Of a stretch of 64,000 nt of DNA, positions 7,413-35,631 are shown piece after piece. How positions within the stretch are numbered: the stretch's first letter is position 1; each line of letters opens with the position of its first letter. This DNA comes from a bacterium 336/3 (lineage in GTDB: Bacteria; Bacteroidota; Bacteroidia; Cytophagales; Thermonemataceae). The DNA lies in contig LJIE01000001.1 in assembly GCA_001281695.1 (NCBI GenBank), forward strand, positions 3,681,521-3,745,520, given 5' to 3'. Made by a program: the position numbers and the translations under genes. The notes under the pieces were generated by a model. The model worked only from the letters and a program-made list of their open reading frames with translations, searched no databases and was not told the DNA's origin.

Positions 7413-8153
7413 ATGAGTTTTAGATTATATATATATTATTTTATTGTTGTTTTAAGCATCATATTTTCACAAAAATCTTTTGCTCAAAAATACACAGACT
7501 ATAAACCCAAATATAACAAGTGGGCTAAAAATTATATTTTAGACAAAATTGAATATACAGATACCCGTACTATTTTTTACTTCAGATATGTATCTGAATT
7601 TGAGTATGGAACAGTAGCTTTTTTTGGTAATGGGCATCCAGAGAGGTGGTGCATAGAAAATGTCGATAATCCCGAAGAAACTTTTTACCACATTGATGTT
7701 AAAAATATTCGTAAAAATGGAAAGATGGTTCTTAATTCCTTAGCAGGGAGTCCTGAAGTTACTTATGAAACCCATGTAGGAGATATATTTACATGTGAAA
7801 TTCATTTTAGGAAGCTTCCAAATAGAATTAAAAAGGCTCATTTATTAGAAGGTAAATATCAAAAAAGTTCTCGAAGGCACTTTCATGCTCTTAATGTAAA
7901 ACTCAAAACATCTGAAGACCCTAATTTAGGCACTTTTGAGGATATGGTAACTCGAGTTCAAGAATTTGAAAGAATTAATTTAGGAACACCAAAAACAATA
8001 TTTAAAATACCTCCTAAAGAGCAAAAAATTCCTCCTCAAAACCAAAAAATTGTTGTAAACAAACCTATTATCAAACTACAAAAGCCTGTAGCTCCTCGCT
8101 TAAATCCTCCGACTACTCCAGAGTATCCGCCAGAAGCAAAGGCTAGAATGTAA
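7413..8153 (+). CDS. Secreted hypothetical protein, second of a tandem pair
   Basis: A 246-residue paralogue of the preceding gene, 15 bases downstream. It shares the post-signal start KYTDYKPKYN, the HPERWC motif, VKNIRKN, FTCEIHF and a C-terminal LNVKLKTSEDPNLG. It differs by an added ~55-residue proline- and lysine-rich tail (with repeated IPPK/IPPQ and P-x-P steps), which looks like a linker or wall-spanning extension. The signal peptide ends near SFAQ. Unknown function. A strong hairpin after the stop ends the operon that begins at rbfA. Confidence 0.8.
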   Translation: MSFRLYIYYFIVVLSIIFSQKSFAQKYTDYKPKYNKWAKNYILDKIEYTDTRTIFYFRYVSEFEYGTVAFFGNGHPERWCIENVDNPEETFYHIDVKNIRKNGKMVLNSLAGSPEVTYETHVGDIFTCEIHFRKLPNRIKKAHLLEGKYQKSSRRHFHALNVKLKTSEDPNLGTFEDMVTRVQEFERINLGTPKTIFKIPPKEQKIPPQNQKIVVNKPIIKLQKPVAPRLNPPTTPEYPPEAKARM

Positions 8154-8182
8154 AAAAGGGTTTCAGTGCTGAAACCCTTTTT
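8152..8182. terminator. Bidirectional terminator
   Basis: AAAAAGGGTTTCAG-tg-CTGAAACCCTTTTT, a perfect 14-bp stem between the convergent secreted-protein operon and the dehydrogenase gene. Confidence 0.9.
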
Positions 8183-8184
8183 CG

Positions 8185-9156
8185 TTAAACAATAATTCCT
8201 TTTTCTATACCAATCTTGATATTCTCAAGCATAGTCTTTGTCATTTTATCCAAATCATAATCAGGTTTCCAGCCCCAATCATTTTGGGCTTGGCTATCAT
8301 CAATGCTGTTAGGCCAAGAGTCTGCAATAGCTTGTCTGAAATCTATATTATAAGTAATGGTAAATTCTGGGATAGTTTTCTGGATAGATTGTGCTATTTC
8401 TTTTGGTGAAAAACTCATTCCACTCAAATTATAGGATGTTCTTACTGCAATTTTTGATGCATCAGCATGCATTAAGTCTAAAGTTGCTTTAATCGCATCA
8501 TCCATGTACATCATAGGTAAGTATGTATTTTCTGAAAGAAAACACTCATAAGTCTTAGAATACAATGCTTTATGGTAAATGTCTACTGCATAGTCAGTTG
8601 TACCTCCTCCTGGCATAGATTTATAACCTATCAATCCAGGGTAACGCAAACTACGTACATCTACTCCATAACGTTTAAAATAATAGTTACACCAACCCTC
8701 ACCTGCTTGTTTACTGATGCCATATACAGTAGTAGGTTCCATAGAACAAAATTGTGGAGTATTATCTTTAGGAGTGGTTGGTCCAAAAACAGCAATAGAA
8801 CTTGGAAAATAAATTTTATGTAGTTTCTTCTCTATGGCAATATCCAAAACATTAATAAGTCCTTGCATATTAAGCTGCCAAGCATGTTTGGGATGCTTTT
8901 CGCCTGTAGCCGAAAGCATGGCTGCAAGGTGATAGATTTGAGTAATATTATACTTTTCTACAATTTCATTGAGACGGATAGGATTTAAAACATCTAATTT
9001 CTCAAAAATACCAAGTTCTTCCTTACGAATTTTGGCAGGCTCTCGAACATCAGAAGAAACCACTTGATTTTCTCCATATACATTTTTCAGGGCAGTAACC
9101 AGTTCAACACCCAATTGACCTGCCGAGCCAATAACTAAAATAGATTCTTTTTGCAT
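8185..9156 (-). CDS. SDR-type L-threonine 3-dehydrogenase / NAD-dependent epimerase family
   Basis: A 323-residue extended short-chain dehydrogenase. The NAD-binding GSAGQLG is near residue 10 and the active-site Tyr-x-x-x-Lys is in TTVYGISKQAGE (about 145-156), with Ser in FPSSIAVFG. The substrate region (YPGLIGYKSMPGGGTTDYAV) matches what I recall of the GalE-like L-threonine 3-dehydrogenases of Cytophaga and Flavobacterium, which oxidise threonine to 2-amino-3-ketobutyrate. Other sugar epimerase activities cannot be excluded from sequence alone. Single gene, convergent with its neighbour. Confidence 0.85.
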   Translation of the reverse strand: MQKESILVIGSAGQLGVELVTALKNVYGENQVVSSDVREPAKIRKEELGIFEKLDVLNPIRLNEIVEKYNITQIYHLAAMLSATGEKHPKHAWQLNMQGLINVLDIAIEKKLHKIYFPSSIAVFGPTTPKDNTPQFCSMEPTTVYGISKQAGEGWCNYYFKRYGVDVRSLRYPGLIGYKSMPGGGTTDYAVDIYHKALYSKTYECFLSENTYLPMMYMDDAIKATLDLMHADASKIAVRTSYNLSGMSFSPKEIAQSIQKTIPEFTITYNIDFRQAIADSWPNSIDDSQAQNDWGWKPDYDLDKMTKTMLENIKIGIEKGIIV

Positions 9157-9318
9157 GCTTTGTGTTGTTTCGTAGTAAAATTAATACTTTTTCGAGAAAA
9201 AATAGAATTTTTTTAAGCATTATTCATGAATAAAAAAGTAGTAAGTTTAGATAAAGGGTTGATTTTATTTTAATAGCTTTGCCCAAAATTTATAGATTGT
9301 ATTTATCATTCATAGTTT

Positions 9319-9954
9319 ATGGAAAATGTAGCTCATAAAATAGCATCTTTATTATTAGAAATTCAGGCTGTAAAACTAAGCCCCAATGCTCCTTTTAAGT
9401 GGAGTTCTGGATGGCTCTCTCCTATTTATTGTGATAACCGTCTCACACTTTCATATCCTGAAACTCGTACTTACATTAAAAATGCTTTTGTAGATTTAAT
9501 AAAAGCTAAATTTGCTGATGTAGAAGCTATTGCAGGTGTTGCTACAGCAGGAATTCCCCAAGGGGCTTTGATTGCAGACGCAATGGGTTTGCCGTTTGTT
9601 TATGTACGCTCTGAAGCAAAAAAACATGGTATGACAAATCTAATTGAAGGCAAAGTTGAACCTAATCAGAAAATTGTAGTCATTGAAGATTTGATTTCTA
9701 CGGGTGGGAGCTCTCTGAAAGTAGTTGATGCTTTAAGAGAAGCAAATTGTGACGTTTTGGGACTTGTAGCTATCATGACTTATGGCTTTGAAGTAGCTAT
9801 ACAGGCTTTTGAAGAAAAAAATGTTCCTTTTTATACTTTATCTAATTATAATTTTGTACTTGATGAGGCTCTTAAACAAAATATAATTGATACAAATATT
9901 CAAAAATCGTTGGAAGAATGGAGAAAAGAACCCAGTAATTGGCAAGGTATTTAA
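9319..9954 (+). CDS. pyrE: Orotate phosphoribosyltransferase
   Basis: A 211-residue type I phosphoribosyltransferase. The PRPP loop is IVVIEDLISTGGSS (about 117-130). The orotate-side motifs FKWSSGWLSPIYCDNR and FVYVRSEAKKHG are intact. It makes orotidine 5'-phosphate in pyrimidine synthesis in the cytoplasm. No other pyr gene is adjacent. TAGCTTTG at 9274-9281 fits a -10-type element, but no good upstream half is visible at the right distance. Confidence 0.94.
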   Translation: MENVAHKIASLLLEIQAVKLSPNAPFKWSSGWLSPIYCDNRLTLSYPETRTYIKNAFVDLIKAKFADVEAIAGVATAGIPQGALIADAMGLPFVYVRSEAKKHGMTNLIEGKVEPNQKIVVIEDLISTGGSSLKVVDALREANCDVLGLVAIMTYGFEVAIQAFEEKNVPFYTLSNYNFVLDEALKQNIIDTNIQKSLEEWRKEPSNWQGI

Positions 9955-10123
9955 TATATAAAGTGTAAACCAAATATTTATCTACTAATTAACTTACAGT
10001 TTGGCTTTAATTTTAAATATCCAATAGAAAATTATTCATAGATATTTGTAATATAATGATATCAAACATCATTATACTAAATATCTATTCAAAAAAGATA
10101 ATCTGAAATAAAATATACAATGA

Positions 10124-11152
10124 ATGAACTATAGCAACCAAATATTATTTCTTTTAAGTGCTTTGGGTATTTTTAATAGTATTATTTTAAGCACCTTTTT
10201 TGTATTTTTCAAAAAAAACAAAGCTATTTCAGACTTTTTTTTAGGTGGCTTATTATTCGTTTTGAGTATTAGAATTGGAAAGTCCGTATTTTTTTATTTT
10301 AATACTCATTTGTCTAGAATATATTTACAAGTAGGACTATCAGCCTGTTTTTTAATAGGTCCTATGTTATATTTCTTTGTAAAATCAAAATCACAGAAAC
10401 TCAATTCTTCTTTTGCCAAATATAGTTTGGTCTTTCTTTTATTGTTTATTATTGTTTTTGGCATTCTTTTTCCATATCAAGAATACCCATCTTTGTGGGG
10501 AAATCAAGTTTATTGTATCATTAATTATCAATGGTTAATTTTTATTTTTTTATCAATCTACACAGCTAAATCTGTTTTTCAGAAATTATTTAATGCTCGT
10601 AACTTAATCACTCATAATGATATTTGGATTATGACAATTATAATAGGGGTTTCTATTATTTGGATTTCTTATTTTACGGGAAGATATACTTCTTACATTT
10701 CAGGAGCATTGACTTTTTCATTTAGTTTTTACATCTCTTTCCTTGTTATTTTTTATATCAAAAGCAAACCATCAGTTTCAAATATTACAAAAGAAAAATA
10801 CATTAATAAAATAGATGAAAAATTAGTTAAAGAAATTCAAGATAAAATAATTACACTTTTTGAAACACAAAAAATTTATACAAATCCTAATCTTACTTTA
10901 TCACTTTTGGCACAAGAGTTAAAGATACGCCCTCAGTTGCTCTCACAATTTATCAATGACAACTTGAATAAAAGTTTTGCTCAATTTATCAACGAGTATC
11001 GAGTAGATGAAGCCAAACAGCTACTAAAGAAGAATACACATTTGAAAATAGATACTGTAGGTATGGAATGTGGCTTTAATTCAAGTAGTTCCTTTTATAG
11101 TACTTTCAAAAAAATCACAGGCACAACCCCTTCAAACTACCAGAAAGCCTAA
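10124..11152 (+). CDS. Membrane-bound AraC-family transcriptional regulator
   Basis: A 342-residue protein. The first ~215 residues hold about six or seven hydrophobic segments, and the last ~110 form an AraC DNA-binding domain (LTLSLLAQELKIRPQLLSQFIN, then IDTVGMECGFNSSSSFYSTFKK). This membrane-anchored AraC type is common in Bacteroidota. The receptor gene starts 123 bases downstream on the same strand and is the probable target. A second ATG four bases upstream (10120) runs into a stop after four codons, so 10124 is the start. Confidence 0.9.
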   Translation: MNYSNQILFLLSALGIFNSIILSTFFVFFKKNKAISDFFLGGLLFVLSIRIGKSVFFYFNTHLSRIYLQVGLSACFLIGPMLYFFVKSKSQKLNSSFAKYSLVFLLLFIIVFGILFPYQEYPSLWGNQVYCIINYQWLIFIFLSIYTAKSVFQKLFNARNLITHNDIWIMTIIIGVSIIWISYFTGRYTSYISGALTFSFSFYISFLVIFYIKSKPSVSNITKEKYINKIDEKLVKEIQDKIITLFETQKIYTNPNLTLSLLAQELKIRPQLLSQFINDNLNKSFAQFINEYRVDEAKQLLKKNTHLKIDTVGMECGFNSSSSFYSTFKKITGTTPSNYQKA

Positions 11153-11222
11153 TTTTTACTCCTAAAATATACATTTGGACTTCTCGATCATAAACTTGGA
11201 GTGATTTAAAATTTCAGCAATA

Positions 11223-11230
11223 TAGTTTTG
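11223..11230 (+). promoter_or_regulatory. Possible -10 element of the receptor gene
   Basis: TAGTTTTG matches TAnnTTTG and lies 45 bases before the receptor start. The nearest TTG upstream is 24 bases away, longer than usual, so this promoter may need an activator such as the adjacent AraC protein. Confidence 0.35.
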
Positions 11231-11275
11231 CAAAGATATTTTTAGATCATTAAAATTTTATGTTTAAGGCTTCTT

Positions 11276-13663
11276 ATGAAAAACTCCATTATCAATTTTA
11301 TAGTTGCATTTTGTTTCACGGCTTTGCAAAGTTACAGCCAAACCATCAGTTCTATTTCAGGAAAAGTAATAAGTACTTCAAATGAATTAATCATAGGAAA
11401 TGTACTTGTATTGTCTGTTAAAGATTCTGTTTTTATTAAGGGAACAAGTTTTACAGACACAACCTTTATTTTAACCAATATCAATAAATCAGAAGTATTA
11501 CTCAAGTTTTCTTCTTTATCATTTCCTGATACAATTATAAGAGTTACCTATAGAGGGCTATCTGATATTGATATAGGTACAATTGTTATGAAAGTAGATG
11601 AAAATGACTTGGAGGCTATTAAAGTTGTAGGTACACTACCCCTTATAAAACACAATGCCGATGGAACAATTGAAGTGAATGTAGCCAATACTATCCTCTC
11701 TGCTAGTAGTTCTATTACTGAAATACTTTCTAAATCTCCGAATATCATAGAGAATAATGGTCAATTATCTGTCTTTGGGAAAGGCGAGGCCATGCTTTTT
11801 CTTAATGGCAAACAAATTACAAATGAACGATTATCTTCTATACCTGTTTCTCAGATATTAAAGATTGAAATTATTTCCAATCCTTCTTCGAAATACGATG
11901 CAGAAGGAAAAGCAGTCATTAATATCATTACAAAAACCATTGTTGAAGCAGGCATTATGGGAACAATCAGTCAGCAAATTACTTATTCTGATTTTGCAGG
12001 AACTAACACACAATCATTTCTGGATTTGAGTTATATGAAGGGTAAATTTTCAGTAATCGGTAATTATTCATTGCTTTTGGGTGAAAATCGAATGTTTCTG
12101 CATACCACCAGAACCAGACCCTCAGTAGAAGAATACCTCAAATCGGATTTGACAACTGATTGGAGATATAAAATGAATAATTACTCAAACTATGGTTTAG
12201 GTATGCAATACAACTTTAATAGTAAAAGCAATATTTCTATAGCATATAATGGTTATTTAGAAAACATGGGTGGGTCTACAAGAAGCCAAAACACTATTGA
12301 TACAAAAACTGATAATAGTTTTTACAGAAGCTATATTGACAAAGATGAAGAAAGAACCAATAATTCATTGACCTTAAATTATAATAAAACCCTTGATTCG
12401 CTTGGCTCTACTTTGTTTGTTGGGTCTCAGTATTCACAATTCAATTCTGATATTGATGACTTTATAACTGAGAATAAAACTGTTAATGGCGTAGATGGTA
12501 TCAGGTATTTACAAAATGATGTGAATCATAACATAACTGTTTCAAGCAGTCAGTTTGATTTTACAAAAACATTTCGTAATCATAAGAAATTAGAAATAGG
12601 AGCCAAGTTTAGTTATGTTAGTACCGAATCTGCTACAAACTTTCTTATAGCAGATAATGGCAGTGAATTCATATTAGACAATAATCTATCTAATAAATTT
12701 AGGTATGATGAAAAGATACCCGCTGCATATTTCAATTATAGTGGATCCATCAATAAAGTAAATTTTGGAATTGGCATAAGAGGCGAACTAACTGATTATA
12801 AACTTAATACAAGTATAGGAAATGGACAAATCCTCACTGATAATTATTTTAATATATTTCCTAACTTACAGATAAACACTATCATTTCCAAATCGCTTAA
12901 ATTAAGGGCTTCATATTTATCAAGAATAACAAGACCACGTTATCAAGCTCTTAACCCTTTTGTCATTTATCAAGATCCATTTACTACCATTGAAGGGAAC
13001 CCAAATCTAATACCTGAAAAAGTACATGCTTTTGAGGTAGGAGCAAATTATCAAGATTTTGATTTTCGAGTAGGATATAATTACACAATAGACCCTCTTA
13101 ACGCTGCTGCTCTAAGAGGCTTCAATCCTAATAGTTATGTTTTAAAAGCTATAAACTTAGACAAGGGTTACAGTTATTTTACATCCATTACTAAAAATAC
13201 CAATCTCAAGTGGTGGACTTCTATCAACACTGTAAATCTTAGTTACAACAACCTGATAACCAATCAATATAATTTTGTTTTTGTAAACCCTAAACCACAA
13301 TTATATCTCTATTCTAACAATACTTTCAATGTTAATAATTTATTCAAGGTACAATTGCTTGCATGGTATTTGGGTCGTAAGCAACAGGGTTTATATGATG
13401 AATACAGCAGATATTTGATAACATTGGGAGTTGAAAAAGATTTTCTGCAAAAAAAGTTAAAAATAAGATTTTTGGCTAATGATATTTTTACAAGAACCAA
13501 TGCTTCAGGGTTTTATAGTGTAGGCCAGACAAATATTATTTATAACAGAACTTTCAATAATAGTTACTTTAGATTTATTGCCACTTTTAATTTTGGGAAA
13601 CTAAAAAAATTCAATTTTAAAATTAAGTCAACTGGGCAGTCCGAGAATAATAGAGCAAACTAA
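11276..13663 (+). CDS. Outer-membrane beta-barrel (TonB-receptor-like) protein
   Basis: A 795-residue protein with a signal peptide (ending SYSQ, about 22). It has a carboxypeptidase-regulatory-like domain (about 25-105), a plug-like domain (about 110-215, ending NPSSKYDAEGKAVINI) and a long barrel rich in Asn, Tyr and Ser. In family and order it matches the partial receptor at the left edge, and both follow an AraC gene. It probably acts in outer-membrane uptake or signalling of an unknown ligand. The end (SENNRAN) lacks the usual terminal aromatic residue; FGKLKKFNFKIK about 20 residues earlier may be the last strand. Confidence 0.88.
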   Translation: MKNSIINFIVAFCFTALQSYSQTISSISGKVISTSNELIIGNVLVLSVKDSVFIKGTSFTDTTFILTNINKSEVLLKFSSLSFPDTIIRVTYRGLSDIDIGTIVMKVDENDLEAIKVVGTLPLIKHNADGTIEVNVANTILSASSSITEILSKSPNIIENNGQLSVFGKGEAMLFLNGKQITNERLSSIPVSQILKIEIISNPSSKYDAEGKAVINIITKTIVEAGIMGTISQQITYSDFAGTNTQSFLDLSYMKGKFSVIGNYSLLLGENRMFLHTTRTRPSVEEYLKSDLTTDWRYKMNNYSNYGLGMQYNFNSKSNISIAYNGYLENMGGSTRSQNTIDTKTDNSFYRSYIDKDEERTNNSLTLNYNKTLDSLGSTLFVGSQYSQFNSDIDDFITENKTVNGVDGIRYLQNDVNHNITVSSSQFDFTKTFRNHKKLEIGAKFSYVSTESATNFLIADNGSEFILDNNLSNKFRYDEKIPAAYFNYSGSINKVNFGIGIRGELTDYKLNTSIGNGQILTDNYFNIFPNLQINTIISKSLKLRASYLSRITRPRYQALNPFVIYQDPFTTIEGNPNLIPEKVHAFEVGANYQDFDFRVGYNYTIDPLNAAALRGFNPNSYVLKAINLDKGYSYFTSITKNTNLKWWTSINTVNLSYNNLITNQYNFVFVNPKPQLYLYSNNTFNVNNLFKVQLLAWYLGRKQQGLYDEYSRYLITLGVEKDFLQKKLKIRFLANDIFTRTNASGFYSVGQTNIIYNRTFNNSYFRFIATFNFGKLKKFNFKIKSTGQSENNRAN

Positions 13664-13992
13664 TTGAATCGCCATCTTAAGGAGTTATTATTCCAAACTC
13701 TAAAAAACAACATTAGAATCCTTCCATAATATTTTTAGATTTTTTATAAAATTGTAAAATGAAATGGAAGGAGAATTTTGTAGTCTAAATGTGTTTTATA
13801 GTGAAAAAAAGTACTTTTTAACAATTGTATTAAGAAGCGATTCTTTTACAAAATATCCACTCATTGCTACTTTTATAATACTCAATTATAATAGGGGTCT
13901 ATTAGAAGAATAGATTTTAAAAGCTTGAAGGTTTTTCATTTGTTTATTTGCATCTTTTTTTACAACTTGTTTCGGAAATATACTTTTGTGAT
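13664..13992. other. Intergenic region, no gene seen
   Basis: A 329-base AT-rich gap with no credible ORF or RNA gene. TACTTTTG at 13981-13988 matches the -10 consensus TAnnTTTG but sits right at the next start codon and has no upstream half, so it is not called as a promoter. Confidence 0.5.
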
Positions 13993-15861
13993 ATGGAATA
14001 CACTCAAAATCAAGAATCTCATGCTTTACGTGTGAAAGAATTAGAGACTATTATTAAAATTTGCGATGAACTCAAAAGTCTCAATAGTGATATTAATCCT
14101 TTTATTTATTTTCGTAAAGCTCAAGCCTTACTTGCCTTAGGTAAAGAGGAAGAAGGTTTGAGAGTTTTGAATATAGCTCAAGATATTTTTGAGGAAAACT
14201 ATGGTACATTAGAAGATTCTTACTCTTGGAGTAAAGAGGTAAATGAGCTATATCTCAATATTTTAATAGAACAAGCTAAAAGACAAGAAAGAAATCCAGC
14301 AAAAGCTTTGTGGCTTTATAATGAGGCTTATCAGCTTACCAAAGAACCTGAACTACGTTATGAGTTTAAGCAAATGCGTCAGACTGCCTATCAAGATTTG
14401 GTAAATAGCCCAGTAGCTCTCAAACGTTTTGCTTATATTGAAGAAGATTTACCTAATACAGAGCCTGTTTCTATTCTTCCTTTATTAAGTTCAGATACAG
14501 GAAATATCAAATTGGTTGGCAATACAAACAAGAAAGGTTCTTTTTGGATTGCACATCCTTACAAAAAACGTATTTATTACGATTTTGAGCAAGCTAATCA
14601 ATTAGCTTTCAACGATTATATAAATGAGTTTGTACAACTTGTTCAACATTTAGGAGCCAACAAAATTACTTTAGAATATATCAATGAAAGGCAAAATGAA
14701 GGCAAAAATGACCCTGCTGCCGAAAAACTCCCTGATGATGTAAGCAATCAGATTTCAAGAAAAGCTTCTTCAACGATTATCATACACGAATTTCATCCAA
14801 GACAAAGAGCTCATGTACCTACTCATCTGTCTTGGTATGCTTCTCAACAGGAGTGGCAATCTTTAGTTGCACAAAGGAGTCAGGGCTCACTAACTGAGGT
14901 AAGTATAACACTTAATTCTGCTAATATTTTACGTATTCAAGAATCTGATTTAGAGGAAGTTCAAGAGGAATTAAGAGAACTTTTAGATAATAACTACAAA
15001 TCAGGAAAATCTGAAACTACCAATGTTCGCCAAAAAAAGCGAATTCGTAAAACTGGTAAGCAAGAGCATCATGATTTCAGTCTGCAAAGAGATTGGAAAT
15101 ATATTGAATGTAATATTAAAGTAGAGTTTACACCTTTAGAGCAACTGAAAGGAGAAATTATTGCAACAGAACTTGAAATCATTTCTTTAGATTTACCTGA
15201 ACCTACTATTGAAAATAGAAAAATGGCAAGTGTGGATGTTTCTTCCATGATTCAGGAAGTAGTAGAAAAAATAAAGCCTATTGCTACACAACAGACTGAA
15301 AAACAAGAAAAAACAAAACCTATTGTTACACAGCAAAATGAAATACAAGAAGAAACAGCAACTCAGGAAATAAAAAAACAAGAGCCTGTCGTAAAGAAAA
15401 AAACACAGCAATTTTATTCCTCTGATGATGAAGAAACTGCTTATGACAAATGGAAAAAGCTGATTCAAGAAGAAAGACGCATTGCTAAGGAACTTTTAGA
15501 AGAACATGATAAGAACCCTGATGTAGAGAAAGTGTTAGATAAAATTATTACTGTTGAACCCAAACGTGAAAGAGATAATATATTAGACCCTGACATTACA
15601 GAAGAAGAAAAGAAAAAACCTGAGACAATTATTCTTGAAAAGAAAGAACCTTTAAAGGAAACTATTTCTTCTGAAGATACAAGAGATCAAGATGGGCTTA
15701 CAGCTGATGAACGTTATTATTATGAGATGTTACAACATGCTTACCAAGATGGTAATGTATCTGAAGATGTACGAAAGGTTTTAGAACGTCGCCGTCAACG
15801 TTATAAAATTTCAGAGCAAAGAGCAAAAGAAATTGAAAAGATGATGCTGGATAAAAAATAA
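13993..15861 (+). CDS. Large hypothetical protein with TPR-like N-terminus and helical C-terminal module
   Basis: About 622 residues from MEYTQNQESH; an in-frame ATG at 13948 would add 15 residues of unlikely sequence. No signal peptide or membrane segment is seen. Residues ~1-140 are helical with TPR-like pairs (FIYFRKAQALLALGKEEEGL). The middle (about 150-410) is a mixed alpha/beta region with GSFWIAHPYKKRIYYD and HEFHPRQRAHVPTH. Residues ~430-560 are Glu/Lys/Gln-rich and probably disordered. The last ~50 form a compact helical module (ADERYYYEMLQHAYQDGNVS followed by EDVRKVLERRR and ISEQRAKEIEKM). I do not recognise the whole protein. Confidence 0.7.
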   Translation: MEYTQNQESHALRVKELETIIKICDELKSLNSDINPFIYFRKAQALLALGKEEEGLRVLNIAQDIFEENYGTLEDSYSWSKEVNELYLNILIEQAKRQERNPAKALWLYNEAYQLTKEPELRYEFKQMRQTAYQDLVNSPVALKRFAYIEEDLPNTEPVSILPLLSSDTGNIKLVGNTNKKGSFWIAHPYKKRIYYDFEQANQLAFNDYINEFVQLVQHLGANKITLEYINERQNEGKNDPAAEKLPDDVSNQISRKASSTIIIHEFHPRQRAHVPTHLSWYASQQEWQSLVAQRSQGSLTEVSITLNSANILRIQESDLEEVQEELRELLDNNYKSGKSETTNVRQKKRIRKTGKQEHHDFSLQRDWKYIECNIKVEFTPLEQLKGEIIATELEIISLDLPEPTIENRKMASVDVSSMIQEVVEKIKPIATQQTEKQEKTKPIVTQQNEIQEETATQEIKKQEPVVKKKTQQFYSSDDEETAYDKWKKLIQEERRIAKELLEEHDKNPDVEKVLDKIITVEPKRERDNILDPDITEEEKKKPETIILEKKEPLKETISSEDTRDQDGLTADERYYYEMLQHAYQDGNVSEDVRKVLERRRQRYKISEQRAKEIEKMMLDKK

Positions 15862-33768: not shown

Positions 33769-33780
33769 AAATATATAACA

Positions 33781-33814
33781 AAAAAAGCCTCTAAGAATTC
33801 TTAGAGGCTTTTTT
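33781..33814. terminator. Bidirectional terminator between protease and trpE
   Basis: A perfect 17-bp inverted repeat (AAAAAAGCCTCTAAGAA and its complement) with no spacer, between convergent genes. Confidence 0.9.
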
Positions 33815-35217
33815 TATACTTTCTCTGCCCATTGGATTGCTTTTCTTAAAGCTCCCAATTTATTATTTACCTCTTGCAATTCGCTTTGTGTATCCGATTT
33901 GGCTACTACACCTGCCCCAGCCTGAAAGTAAAGTGTATTATTTTTACTTAAAAATGAGCGTATCATGATGGCTTGGTTAAAATCACCATTAAAACCCAAG
34001 AAACCTATACACCCACCATAATATCCTCTATTTCCATGTTCGTACTCATTGATGAGTTGCATAGCTTTGTGTTTGGGAGCTCCTGAAAGTGTACCAGCAG
34101 GAAAAGTATCTGCTACTAATTGCAGGGTGATAGTATTTTGGTGTGTTTCAGCTGAAACTTTAGAAACCAAATGAATTACATGTGAATAGTATTGTATTTC
34201 TTTGAAAGTTTCAACGTTTACGTGGTTTCCATTTCTGCTCAAATCGTTACGAGCCAAATCAACAAGCATCACATGTTCAGCATTTTCTTTGGGGTCATCA
34301 AAAAGTTTTTGAGCCAAAACCAAATCGGCTTGATCATCACCTGTACGTTTAAAAGTACCTGCAATAGGAAATATACTTGCTTTATTTCCTTTCACAACTA
34401 TTTGAGCTTCAGGTGAAGAGCCAAATATTTTAAAACTTCCATAATCAAAATAAAAAAGATATGGAGATGGATTAACTGAACGCAAAGCTCTATAGACATT
34501 GAACTCATCACCTTGAAAACTCTGTTCAAATCTTCTTGAAAGCACCATCTGAAAAACATCTCCCAACCTGCAGTGTTCTTTGGCTTTTTCTATCACTTCT
34601 AAAAATTCGGAATCTGTAAAATTAGATGACTCGTCATTGGTAAGTTTAAAATGATACTGAGGGATATTTCTGTTAAAAATAAGATTCTCGATTTCTTGCA
34701 GATGACTCTTTTCATCTTCTAAAAGATGTTCAAAAATATACAATTCGTTATTAAAATGGTTGATGGCAATCACGTATTGATAAACCTGATAGATAATGGT
34801 TGGTATTTTTCTGCTGTCGCTTTCAAAATCTTTGATTTCGACATCTTCAAAGTATTTGACAGCATCATAAGCCATGTAACCAAATAATCCGTTATTGATA
34901 AAATTGAAAGGGTTCTTTTCTACTTCAAAACTCTTAGCAAATATATCAAGAGCATTTACTACTTGTTTGGGAGTTGTAATAGGCTCTGCTTCTGCTTTTA
35001 CCTTAGGGTATTGTGTAAGAATAGTATTGTTTTTTACCTCAAAACGAGCTATTGGGTGAAAACATATATATGAAAAACTATTTTCATTGCCATGGTAATC
35101 AGAACTTTCTAGCAAAATAGAGTTTGCAAATTTATCTCTCAGTTTCAGATAAATACTTACAGGTGTTACTGTATCTGCTAGTAATTGTTTGTAGTTGGTT
35201 TTCAGTTTTAATTTCAT
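33814..35217 (-). CDS. trpE: Anthranilate synthase component I
   Basis: About 467 residues from MKLKLKTNYK; an ATG at 35226 would add three. The N-terminal LLESSDYHG resembles the tryptophan-feedback site of TrpE. The chorismate-binding domain is intact: FGSSPEAQIVVKG, PIAGTFKRTGDDQAD and FPAGTLSGAPKHKAMQLI. It makes anthranilate from chorismate with a glutamine amidotransferase subunit that is not encoded here. No trp gene follows; a terminator comes directly after the stop. Two tRNA-Trp genes and an apparent tryptophan attenuator lie immediately upstream on the same strand. A PabB-like role is less likely given the leader. Confidence 0.92.
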   Translation of the reverse strand: MKLKLKTNYKQLLADTVTPVSIYLKLRDKFANSILLESSDYHGNENSFSYICFHPIARFEVKNNTILTQYPKVKAEAEPITTPKQVVNALDIFAKSFEVEKNPFNFINNGLFGYMAYDAVKYFEDVEIKDFESDSRKIPTIIYQVYQYVIAINHFNNELYIFEHLLEDEKSHLQEIENLIFNRNIPQYHFKLTNDESSNFTDSEFLEVIEKAKEHCRLGDVFQMVLSRRFEQSFQGDEFNVYRALRSVNPSPYLFYFDYGSFKIFGSSPEAQIVVKGNKASIFPIAGTFKRTGDDQADLVLAQKLFDDPKENAEHVMLVDLARNDLSRNGNHVNVETFKEIQYYSHVIHLVSKVSAETHQNTITLQLVADTFPAGTLSGAPKHKAMQLINEYEHGNRGYYGGCIGFLGFNGDFNQAIMIRSFLSKNNTLYFQAGAGVVAKSDTQSELQEVNNKLGALRKAIQWAEKV

Positions 35218-35243
35218 AAAGCTCATTTTTTATGTGAATCTTG

Positions 35244-35314
35244 CACAGAGTGAGGGATTCGAACCCCCATAATTTATTTTGGAGACAAACGTCTTACCTT
35301 TAGACCAACTCTGT
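35244..35314 (-). tRNA. tRNA-Trp (CCA), second of tandem pair, next to trpE
   Basis: A 71-base cloverleaf. The acceptor stem ACAGAGT/ACTCTGT is perfect, with discriminator G. The D-arm is GTCT/AGAC with GG in the loop, and the anticodon stem TTTGT/ATAAA holds loop CTCCAAA, giving anticodon CCA. The T-arm loop is TTCGAAT. A1-U72 and G73 fit tryptophanyl-tRNA identity. CCA is not encoded. It differs from the upstream copy at about eight positions, several of them creating G-U pairs. Its 3' end is only about 17-26 bases from the trpE start. Confidence 0.9.
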
Positions 35315-35343
35315 AAAAAGGTTTTAGTTTAAGTATTTATTAG

Positions 35344-35414
35344 CACAGAGTGAAGGAATCGAACCTCCGTGATTTGTTTTGGAGACAAACGTCTTGCCAT
35401 TAGACCAACTCTGT
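35344..35414 (-). tRNA. tRNA-Trp (CCA), first of tandem pair
   Basis: A 71-base cloverleaf with the same acceptor stem and D-arm as the second copy, exactly 100 bases upstream of it. The anticodon stem TTTGT/ACAAA is fully paired around CTCCAAA (anticodon CCA), and the T-loop is TTCGATT. Its first base directly follows the U-tract of the attenuator terminator, so no separate promoter fits between them. Confidence 0.92.
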
Positions 35415-35452
35415 AAAATAAAAGAGGCTTTCTGCAAACAGAAAGCCTCTTT
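35413..35452 (-). terminator. Attenuator terminator upstream of tRNA-Trp genes
   Basis: On the minus strand AAAGAGGCTTTCTG and CAGAAAGCCTCTTT form a perfect 14-bp stem with loop TTTG, followed by TATTTT. It lies between the leader ORF and the first tRNA. Its left arm and loop contain CTGTTTGCA, complementary to TGCAAACAG in the leader ORF (35490-35498), which gives an alternative antiterminator pairing. Confidence 0.88.
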
Positions 35453-35477
35453 CAAAAGAATATTGTTAAGTTAAATA

Positions 35478-35552
35478 TTACATAGCAGCCTGTTTGCAAT
35501 CGGTTGGATTGCCTTGCCAAGTAGCTACAAAATATTTTTGAATAGTATTCAT
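35478..35552 (-). CDS. Putative trp leader peptide (24 codons)
   Basis: ATG at 35552 to TAA at 35480-35478 encodes 24 residues, starting MNTIQKYFVATWQG and ending TDCKQAAM, with Trp at codon 12. A ribosome stalled at that Trp codon would leave codons 19-21 (TGCAAACAG) free to pair with the terminator arm. A ribosome reaching the stop would cover them. An earlier hairpin, GCAATC (35507-35512) with GATTGC (35496-35501), competes for the same bases. Position, length and pairing fit a classical attenuation leader. Only one Trp codon is present, fewer than in the enterobacterial case. Confidence 0.72.
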   Translation of the reverse strand: MNTIQKYFVATWQGNPTDCKQAAM

Positions 35553-35584
35553 CAAATATGTTATGTTGTTTAGTTATTATGTTG

Positions 35585-35616
35585 CAATGATAGATTTTAT
35601 TTTTTAATCCTCCAAA
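35585..35616 (-). promoter_or_regulatory. Candidate promoter of the trp leader
   Basis: On the minus strand TTTG (35616-35613), a 20-base spacer and TATCATTG (35592-35585; one mismatch to TAnnTTTG). Transcription would start about 25 bases upstream of the leader ATG. Confidence 0.5.
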
Positions 35617-35631
35617 TTTTTTGAAAGAATC

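Follow-up and report, generated by a model that had tools for sequence, protein, structure and literature searches.

In the window analysed here, a stretch of 64,000 nucleotides (nt) from bacterium 336/3 (Bacteroidota; Cytophagales; Thermonemataceae; GenBank assembly GCA_001281695.1, contig LJIE01000001.1, forward-strand positions 3,681,521 to 3,745,520), two tRNA-Trp genes lie between a leader open reading frame (ORF) with an intrinsic terminator and trpE, the gene for anthranilate synthase component I. Judged from the sequence, it is very probable that the two tRNAs and TrpE are made as one transcript under a ribosome-mediated attenuator, and that this operon is a member of a wider class of tRNA operons preceded by cognate leaders, that is, leaders with control codons read by the tRNAs encoded behind them.

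Organization of the tRNA-Trp-trpE locus

Coordinates are window positions on the minus strand unless stated otherwise, and numbers beginning with G and L designate genomes and loci of the survey. The features of the locus are as follows.

35585..35616, minus strand: candidate Bacteroidota-type promoter (TTTG 35616-35613, 20 nt, TATCATTG 35592-35585)
35552-35478, minus strand: leader ORF of 24 codons, MNTIQKYFVATWQGNPTDCKQAAM, with its sole TGG (35519-35517) as codon 12
35496..35512, minus strand: 1:2 hairpin, GCAATC (35512-35507) with GATTGC (35501-35496), 6 base pairs (bp)
35499-35489, minus strand: segment 2, 5' strand of the antiterminator, TTGCAAACAGG, complementary to segment 3
35442-35432, minus strand: segment 3, TCTGTTTGCAG, 11 bp with segment 2
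35415..35452, minus strand: intrinsic terminator, hairpin 35452-35421 (segments 3 and 4) and U-tract TTTTATTTT (35423-35415)
35414-35343, minus strand: tRNA-Trp(CCA) gene 1 (ARAGORN; Rfam RF00005, 64.0 bits; A1-U72, G73, CCA end not encoded)
35314-35243, minus strand: tRNA-Trp(CCA) gene 2 (ARAGORN; Rfam RF00005, 64.2 bits; 89% identity to gene 1)
35226-33814, minus strand: trpE, anthranilate synthase component I, 470 amino acids (TIGR00564, homologue identity)
33778..33817, minus strand: terminator 3' of trpE (terminator scan; hairpin listed for both strands)

The 24-codon leader with Trp at codon 12, the 14-bp terminator touching the first tRNA gene and the two tRNA-Trp(CCA) genes repeating at a 100-nt period, all proposed in the initial annotation, were found again on re-reading the sequence. 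The terminator stem closes a 4-nt loop (dG -20.6 kcal/mol) and its U-tract abuts tRNA-Trp gene 1, while trpE follows the second tRNA-Trp gene in the proposed order and on the same strand, starting after 16 nt and not after the claimed 17-26. The top NCBIfam match of its product is TIGR00564 (E 7e-125, 417.6 bits, under the model cut-off of 517.7), and the product is 59-68% identical to those of 80 collected trpE loci. At gathering scores, Rfam matches in the window are confined to tRNAs, namely the two tRNA-Trp genes, and neither the Trp leader nor the T-box covariance models gave a gathering-score match there.

The mutually exclusive pairings described earlier also hold, with the 2:3 helix now read as 11 bp: formation of 2:3 precludes the 14-bp 3:4 terminator, and the 6-bp 1:2 hairpin is an alternative to 2:3. 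The minimum free energy fold of the leader contains the 1:2 hairpin and the terminator; deletion of segment 4 in the folding leads segments 2 and 3 to pair, and masking of the leader to its end, which mimics a ribosome at the stop codon, leaves the terminator to fold (-23.7 kcal/mol). The 2:3 helix is better than expected from codon shuffling (p 0.023), and segment 2 begins 17 nt past the Trp codon. The hairpin upstream of the tRNAs was missed by a generic terminator scan and was detected by purpose-made hairpin scans. Among 39 tRNA operons read in this genome, some with less than 200 nt of upstream sequence, only the tRNA-Trp-trpE operon has a terminator within 60 nt upstream and two others have a hairpin farther upstream; two arrays were added when more upstream sequence was read and longer loops were allowed.

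The near-consensus promoter claimed earlier was not recovered in that form, as the scan found no sigma-70-like promoter before the leader and gave a one-mismatch candidate of another type. This site, TATCATTG, differs at one position from TAnnTTTG, which we take to be the -7 promoter consensus of Bacteroidota, has a TTG at a spacing of 20 and is separated from the leader ATG by 32 nt. A second one-mismatch site with a spaced TTG, AAAATTTG at 35620, is likewise 5' of the leader, and the scanned stretch has no others. From its sequence, the Bacteroidota-type TTG-N20-TATCATTG is the likely promoter of the leader. Between the leader and trpE, the scan found no Bacteroidota-type promoter with a TTG at 17-23 nt, in agreement with the earlier statement that a separate tRNA promoter would have no room. 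Across the survey, 10 of 17 leaders have an exact TAnnTTTG no more than 45 nt from the ATG, as against 3.7% of random positions; the 10 comprise 9 of the 12 unit-initial leaders and 1 of the 5 internal ones.

Trp leaders and tRNA-Trp genes at trpE loci of relatives

The reading as a trp attenuator agrees in order and spacing with the trpE loci of relatives. These loci numbered 109, comprising the best 80 of 584 with record titles and 29 from relatives (L146-L174). A leader with two or three Trp codons in succession (WW or WWW) and a terminator were found in 92 of the 109, and a single-Trp leader with a terminator in 3 more; the remaining 14, which include three congeners and some loci with little upstream sequence, are divided into 2 with a WW or WWW ORF and no detected terminator and 12 without either. 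Merging of near-duplicates left 90 distinct WW leader-terminator pairs, in 78 of which the best segment 2 begins 15-24 nt past the first two Trp codons, a band that includes the 17 nt of the window leader. In two Larkinella loci (L031 and L034), a tRNA-Pro(CGG) gene lies immediately 5' of the trp leader and is not in the attenuated region.

The linkage of tRNA-Trp to trpE recurs in other lineages. Within the best 80 trpE loci, tRNA-Trp lies between leader and trpE in one, Xanthocytophaga flavus L025. The order leader-terminator-tRNA-Trp-trpE is also present in G031 and G046, with WWW leaders, and in G111, of the same genus, with a WW leader. In G018, from a different family, the leader MNKNILHNNWWWTTQSLDRIGN and its terminator are followed by trpE, tRNA-Trp and an ORF, MKILVIDNFDSFVYNI, which from its N-terminus we presume to encode TrpG. 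Because tRNA-Trp sits before trpE in some of these genomes and after it in G018, independent origins of the linkage are suggested. The survey behind these cases gives no exact count of tRNA-Trp/trpE adjacency in the order: it lists in full the 41 genomes with at least two pattern matches, would miss genomes whose single tRNA-Trp adjoins trpE, and covers one fetched place in each of 22 of the 41 genomes (G052 with three tandem copies), nine of the remaining 19 being from family f19. At 4 of the 22 fetched places, no tRNA was called by ARAGORN.

The initial annotation had proposed a genome-wide check for other tRNA-Trp genes. The whole genome has 64 RF00005 matches, and ARAGORN on the loci covering them gives three tRNA-Trp genes, with no call at L144, the site of two of the matches. 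The third copy, G000:C1:3041092-3041162, lies directly before genes that from their sequences we take to be secE-nusG-rplK and is identical to copies in G002 and G004. It is the housekeeping copy, the trpE-linked pair being extra, and the idea that the pair might be the sole tRNA-Trp genes of this genome is ruled out. The linked copies share 69-74% identity with the housekeeping copy and 89% with each other, and they keep the CCA anticodon together with A1-U72 and G73, which we regard as identity elements of tRNA-Trp. Elsewhere in the genome (L145, G000:C4:25700-26100), ARAGORN called as tRNA-Pyl a low-scoring, possibly amber-reading tRNA-like gene with a CTA anticodon.

Accessory tRNA arrays behind cognate leaders

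Tracking of the extra tRNA-Trp genes brought to light accessory tRNA arrays in five families of the order. The genome of the window holds two such arrays, and the window locus looks like one case of this larger class. For example, in the window's genome a Leu-rich leader, MKKNYTHIALLSLLGLLLSSSGGYLYA, and a terminator precede six tRNA-Leu genes, and a second leader, MLLLHTYRSQIINSKPFGLMSQDDFGKERKSSGICVSSNKLRKYS, rich in D, K, S, Y, R, Q, F and M, precedes with its terminator the tRNAs Asp-Lys-Ser-Tyr-Arg-Gln-Phe-Met. G301 has a CCW leader, MKNQMAYNTNCCWYGQSPHQAR, followed by a terminator, tRNA-Trp and tRNA-Cys, with no trpE in the 13 kb read. Similarly, again with no neighbouring trpE, the K/N/W-rich leaders MSKNKVKHNKWWKYCLE of G052 and MIDENKVKYNKWWKYHLD of G103 precede tRNA-Lys and tRNA-Trp, with tRNA-Asn also in G052, and G073 has the leader MKNMFLHRPQQPRRTAR (LHRPQQPRR) before Pro-Gln-His-Arg-Arg-Leu tRNAs. 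In G140, the tandem leader-terminator units MKSNQNTYKNFNDSSFSWTPQPRAICIDI and MKTMKQHNHNYSFSDWGFFWSDVPTKGDGIYT precede tRNA-Lys, Asn, Trp, Asp, Phe, Tyr and Ser, and in G153 a tandem leader pair with several Gln, His and Pro codons lies before a tRNA-Pro at the contig end. The tRNAs given for G103 and G140 are at least those listed, clusters and many single genes having been read.

The arrays of G103 and G052 contain several leaders each. In G103, the SYFQ leader MKQHSYISFYQSSQQFSYYSFSSNDPGGVCTY precedes the tRNAs Ser-Tyr-Ser-Gln-Phe-Ser-Tyr-Ser-Phe-Gln-Phe-Ser-Tyr-Ser, and a further leader of that array, MKTMTTTYCQLSLLQSLSYFFLGNSRGFLWE, stands before tRNA-Cys and five tRNA-Leu genes. For the tRNAs Met-Pro-Pro-His-Arg-Arg-Arg-Ile the leader is MMPIRHISNTPKHRRNPIWIKPPKAARLLL, in an array headed by MLLQNKHITPKTINPWNRKHIIKRWR..., before Ile-Thr tRNAs. 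Amino acids of the downstream tRNAs account for 21 of 23 control residues in the Met-Pro leader and 22 of 25 in the Ile-Thr leader. The placement of two tandem leader-terminator units before one array, as in G140 (L275) and G153 (L298), is as if attenuators stood in series. Locus L231 of G103 (G103:C27:18000-20300) contains eight tRNA-Lys genes; seven repeat every 126 nt, and three are preceded by a terminator-like hairpin.

Scans of wider scope place these arrays among many tRNA operons of other kinds. Across 150 tRNA operons in the collected loci, those with less than 150 nt upstream being skipped, 51 events of a terminator before a tRNA and 30 candidate ORFs were found; the non-matching candidates consist of six ends of a long ORF before tRNA-Trp, presumably EF-Tu, ORFs overlapping better ones, and ORFs at L034, L208 and L236. 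The pattern AGCC..GGCTTTTT..tRNA is present in 63 of 390 genomes of the order, and the leader scan of the 30 listed places made into loci added G073 and G153, the other terminators before tRNAs having no matching leader. In the family of G103, 6 of 15 genomes matched, and the scan of these gave only the G103, G052 and G140 arrays. No cognate leader with a terminator was found at the four g25 arrays or at G350, G306, G127, G233, G197, G171, G203 and G286. The two-tRNA pattern matched none of 395 genomes of the class, a zero that says little since the pattern detects only 1 of 7 known array loci, and the end of the SYFQ leader had no match in viral contigs in one scan.

Match between leader codons and tRNAs

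The correspondence between leaders and arrays was assessed by permutation. When nine leaders were each scored on the tRNAs of their own segment, the observed score was reached in 20 of 362,880 permutations, two misfit units being kept; with all downstream tRNAs and the residues before segment 2, only one of 362,880 does so, which is the true pairing. With eleven leaders, none of 2,000,000 permutations reaches the true leader-array pairing, and the number rises to 59 of 2,000,000 when each array contributes a single leader. The misfit G083 was kept in each test. The tests leave out the trpE-linked leaders, that of the window included, and G153, whose tRNA set is incomplete, and in them G140 is represented by one of its two leaders, each G103/G052 pair of homologues by a single member, and the identical leaders of G083 and G145 by one; the loci are a non-random sample, so that no frequency can be derived from them. 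For the SYFQ, MPHRI, KWN and G140 leaders, the only background ORF reaching the score of the leader is the leader itself.

Segment 2 of the array leaders lies at nt 50-91, with 6-11 nt pairing with the terminator in those computed. In the SYFQ unit of G052, compared with its homologue in G103, segment 2 has G in place of A (the codon changing synonymously from CCA to CCG), segment 3 has C in place of T and segment 4 has G in place of A, and both the 2:3 and the 3:4 pairing are kept, a covariation seen in this one homologous pair only.

Opposing evidence and alternative explanations

Several observations weigh against an attenuator at trpE and against the wider class. The window leader has one Trp codon and most relatives have two or three, and its promoter is a one-mismatch site of a kind found within 45 nt of 40% of random positions, although the TTG is spaced here. 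The conservation expected in close relatives fails within the genus, where in G001-G003 trpE comes directly after another gene, without a trp leader-terminator and without a tRNA, and is found in part within the family, where G004, G006 and G007 have a WWW leader and no tRNA. The 2:3 helix reaches p<=0.05 in only 43 of the 90 trpE leaders (ungapped score), it exceeds 0.05 in the Leu (0.07), CL (0.073), K/W (0.08-0.24), second G140 (0.13) and G301 (0.07) array leaders, and it is no better than shuffles in G073 (0.71) and G018 (0.69). Most of the 150 scanned tRNA operons have no such leader, and none was found before the g25 arrays of G028 and G057. The G083 leader misfits its tRNAs, the Ile-Thr leader misfits its own segment, and the two G153 leaders fit the sole visible tRNA-Pro poorly (0.09). 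In addition, the own-segment test predates the inclusive rule and the control regions, both of which were fixed once the data had been inspected.

Three other explanations can be offered. The attenuator may serve trpE only, with the tRNAs as passengers or as a tRNA-shaped 5' untranslated region that acts as a processing site, a TrpRS decoy or a decoy for uncharged-tRNA sensing. The divergence of the linked copies from a housekeeping tRNA-Trp that is itself identical to those of G002 and G004 is in favour of this, as is the existence of the housekeeping copy, which means that the linked copies need not be essential; it is nevertheless unlikely, as both copies keep the CCA anticodon, A1-U72 and G73 and score 64 bits as tRNAs, the tRNA-Trp of G018 sits 3' of trpE and hence outside its 5' region, and in G301 and the arrays the tRNAs come first behind the leader. 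Still less probable is that the tRNA pair has its own promoter inside the leader-terminator region and that the terminator is an insulator from upstream transcription. Although tRNA genes usually have their own promoters and one-mismatch TAnnTTTG-like sites occur at 35460 and 35442, these sites have no TTG at 17-23 nt, and an insulator needs neither a cognate leader nor a segment 2 at the attenuator position, an order that recurs in unrelated arrays.

For the arrays, the codon matches could arise by chance or composition from the viewing of many ORFs. The loci were picked for extra tRNA-Trp genes or for a terminator pattern, the downstream-inclusive rule was formed after the data had been seen, G083 is a misfit, and 19 of 477 background ORFs reach the CL match and 42 of 760 the WC match, which makes each weak by itself. 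Against this, the composition-keeping permutations stay low both with one leader per array and with the pre-inclusive sets, no other background ORF reaches the SYFQ, MPHRI, KWN and G140 scores, and the segments covary in one pair; chance is the most improbable of the three.

Proposed mechanism and significance

For the preferred reading, a tRNA-Trp-trpE operon under a ribosome-mediated attenuator, we infer co-transcription, the direction of the response, processing and purpose as follows. Transcription would begin 5' of the leader. When charged tRNA-Trp is ample, the ribosome would get to the leader stop codon and mask segment 2, and the 3:4 terminator would halt RNA polymerase ahead of the tRNAs. 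Scarcity of charged tRNA-Trp, due to little Trp or to little intact tRNA-Trp, would stall the ribosome at the Trp codon, segments 2 and 3 would pair, and the tRNAs and trpE would be made. RNase P and RNase Z would then release the tRNAs, leaving a trpE mRNA with a short 5' end, and the circuit would resupply both substrates of TrpRS.

In the wider class, the control codons match the encoded tRNAs, and a shortage of any listed tRNA would therefore turn on its own operon. Synthesis of tRNA can cure a shortage of tRNA and cannot cure a shortage of amino acid. We lean slightly towards the view that the leaders list the tRNAs of their operons, in nested units where the first leader lists those of later units too, and that they act as a translation-coupled sensor of tRNA depletion, e.g., by anticodon nucleases, for resupply and repair, to which the trpE case would add tryptophan synthesis. 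Attenuation is textbook knowledge for amino-acid genes; if the present reading is true, tRNA genes as the output would provide direct feedback on tRNA supply, and a handle would be gained on how bacteria sense the loss of particular tRNAs and why accessory arrays persist. The leaders also predict the tRNA content of an array; for example, those of G153 contain Gln, His and Pro codons and only tRNA-Pro is visible before the contig end.

Neighbouring genes and comparison with phages and plasmids

Downstream of the eight-tRNA array of the window's genome (L319, G000:C1:3337000-3355000; reverse-complement 7414-14813 from the array through the downstream genes), the genes for R2K ATP-grasp, AlkB-like 2OG-Fe(II) oxygenase, tRNA-His and Ro60/TROVE proteins or RNAs come next on the same strand, ahead of a gene for a weakly RimK-like protein, an ORF that matches no Pfam family and an RNA ligase gene. 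Gaps from the array to the RNA ligase are at most 144 nt throughout; PcfJ-like and PNK3P/HAD ORFs come after a 606-nt gap and hence lie outside the proposed unit. By gene content and spacing, the array and the genes that follow it form an apparent RNA-repair operon, and because RNA-repair genes follow the array, tRNA damage is suggested as its trigger; an array joined to such genes also suggests a role in defence or repair. At the G103, G073, G140, G301 and Leu arrays, where a few neighbouring genes were examined, no RNA-repair family was seen. The Leu array (L267 710-1540; L320, G000:C2:101000-120000) is followed by two co-directional ORFs without Pfam match, and a GmrSD-like restriction gene was observed upstream of it. 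In the window itself, an 804-amino-acid ORF at 35632-38046 matches pyruvate dehydrogenase-type E1 alpha and E1 beta models as an apparent fusion.

A recent phage or plasmid origin was considered and rejected on the absent or low-coverage matches. The leader with the tRNA-Trp pair has no match in phages; the Leu array matches 24 phage records, coverage in the 8 inspected being 8-31% of the query, either at tRNA-Leu genes or in records that lack annotation, and has no plasmid match; the eight-tRNA array matches 35 phage records, coverage in the 8 inspected being 2-3% of the query.

Comparison with known systems

The trpL attenuators of E. coli and its relatives consist of a leader peptide with Trp codons, alternative 1:2, 2:3 and 3:4 pairings and a terminator, with trpE downstream. 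The window locus is alike in leader, alternative pairings, terminator and trpE, and differs in its two tRNA-Trp genes before trpE and its single Trp codon. In T-box riboswitches, the leader RNA binds tRNA directly, without a leader peptide, and antitermination responds to charging; Trp-related genes are tied to tRNA-Trp charging in both, whereas the window locus has a leader peptide and no gathering-score T-box match. Phages and bacteria also have tRNA arrays in the form of clusters of accessory tRNA genes, from which the present arrays differ in being preceded or split by leader-terminator units with cognate codons.

In Flavobacterium psychrophilum, which belongs to the same phylum, transcriptome data gave clues to leader-peptide attenuation before amino-acid biosynthesis operons, and tRNA genes as targets are not described in the available part of that report (PMC9723704). 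For a Bacillus subtilis tRNA operon, an upstream attenuation mechanism was raised as a possibility, with a structural-entropy signal ~2000 nt upstream that was discussed as a putative riboswitch, and a leader peptide with tRNA-matched codons does not appear in the available part of that account (PMC4448311). A 2010 comparative study of attenuation of aminoacyl-tRNA biosynthesis operons is cited in the part of another paper available here (PMC4833913). A tRNA array together with a leader peptide occurs in no paper of the open-access (PMC) literature searched, and leader-peptide attenuation of tRNA genes was not found by title or start of abstract among the papers listed from that literature, most subscription journals being outside its scope; tRNA operons with cognate leaders are apparently a class undescribed so far. 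The nearest counterpart of the eight-tRNA array is the RtcR-regulated rsr-yrlBA-rtcBA operon, in which RNA-repair genes with a Ro60 homologue are regulated by damaged tRNAs, and in the available text of which attenuation, leader peptides and tRNA genes are unmentioned (PMC7790460). Comparable repair genes lie behind the eight-tRNA array, and the regulator is RtcR in the former and a candidate leader peptide in the latter, where the tRNA genes come first.

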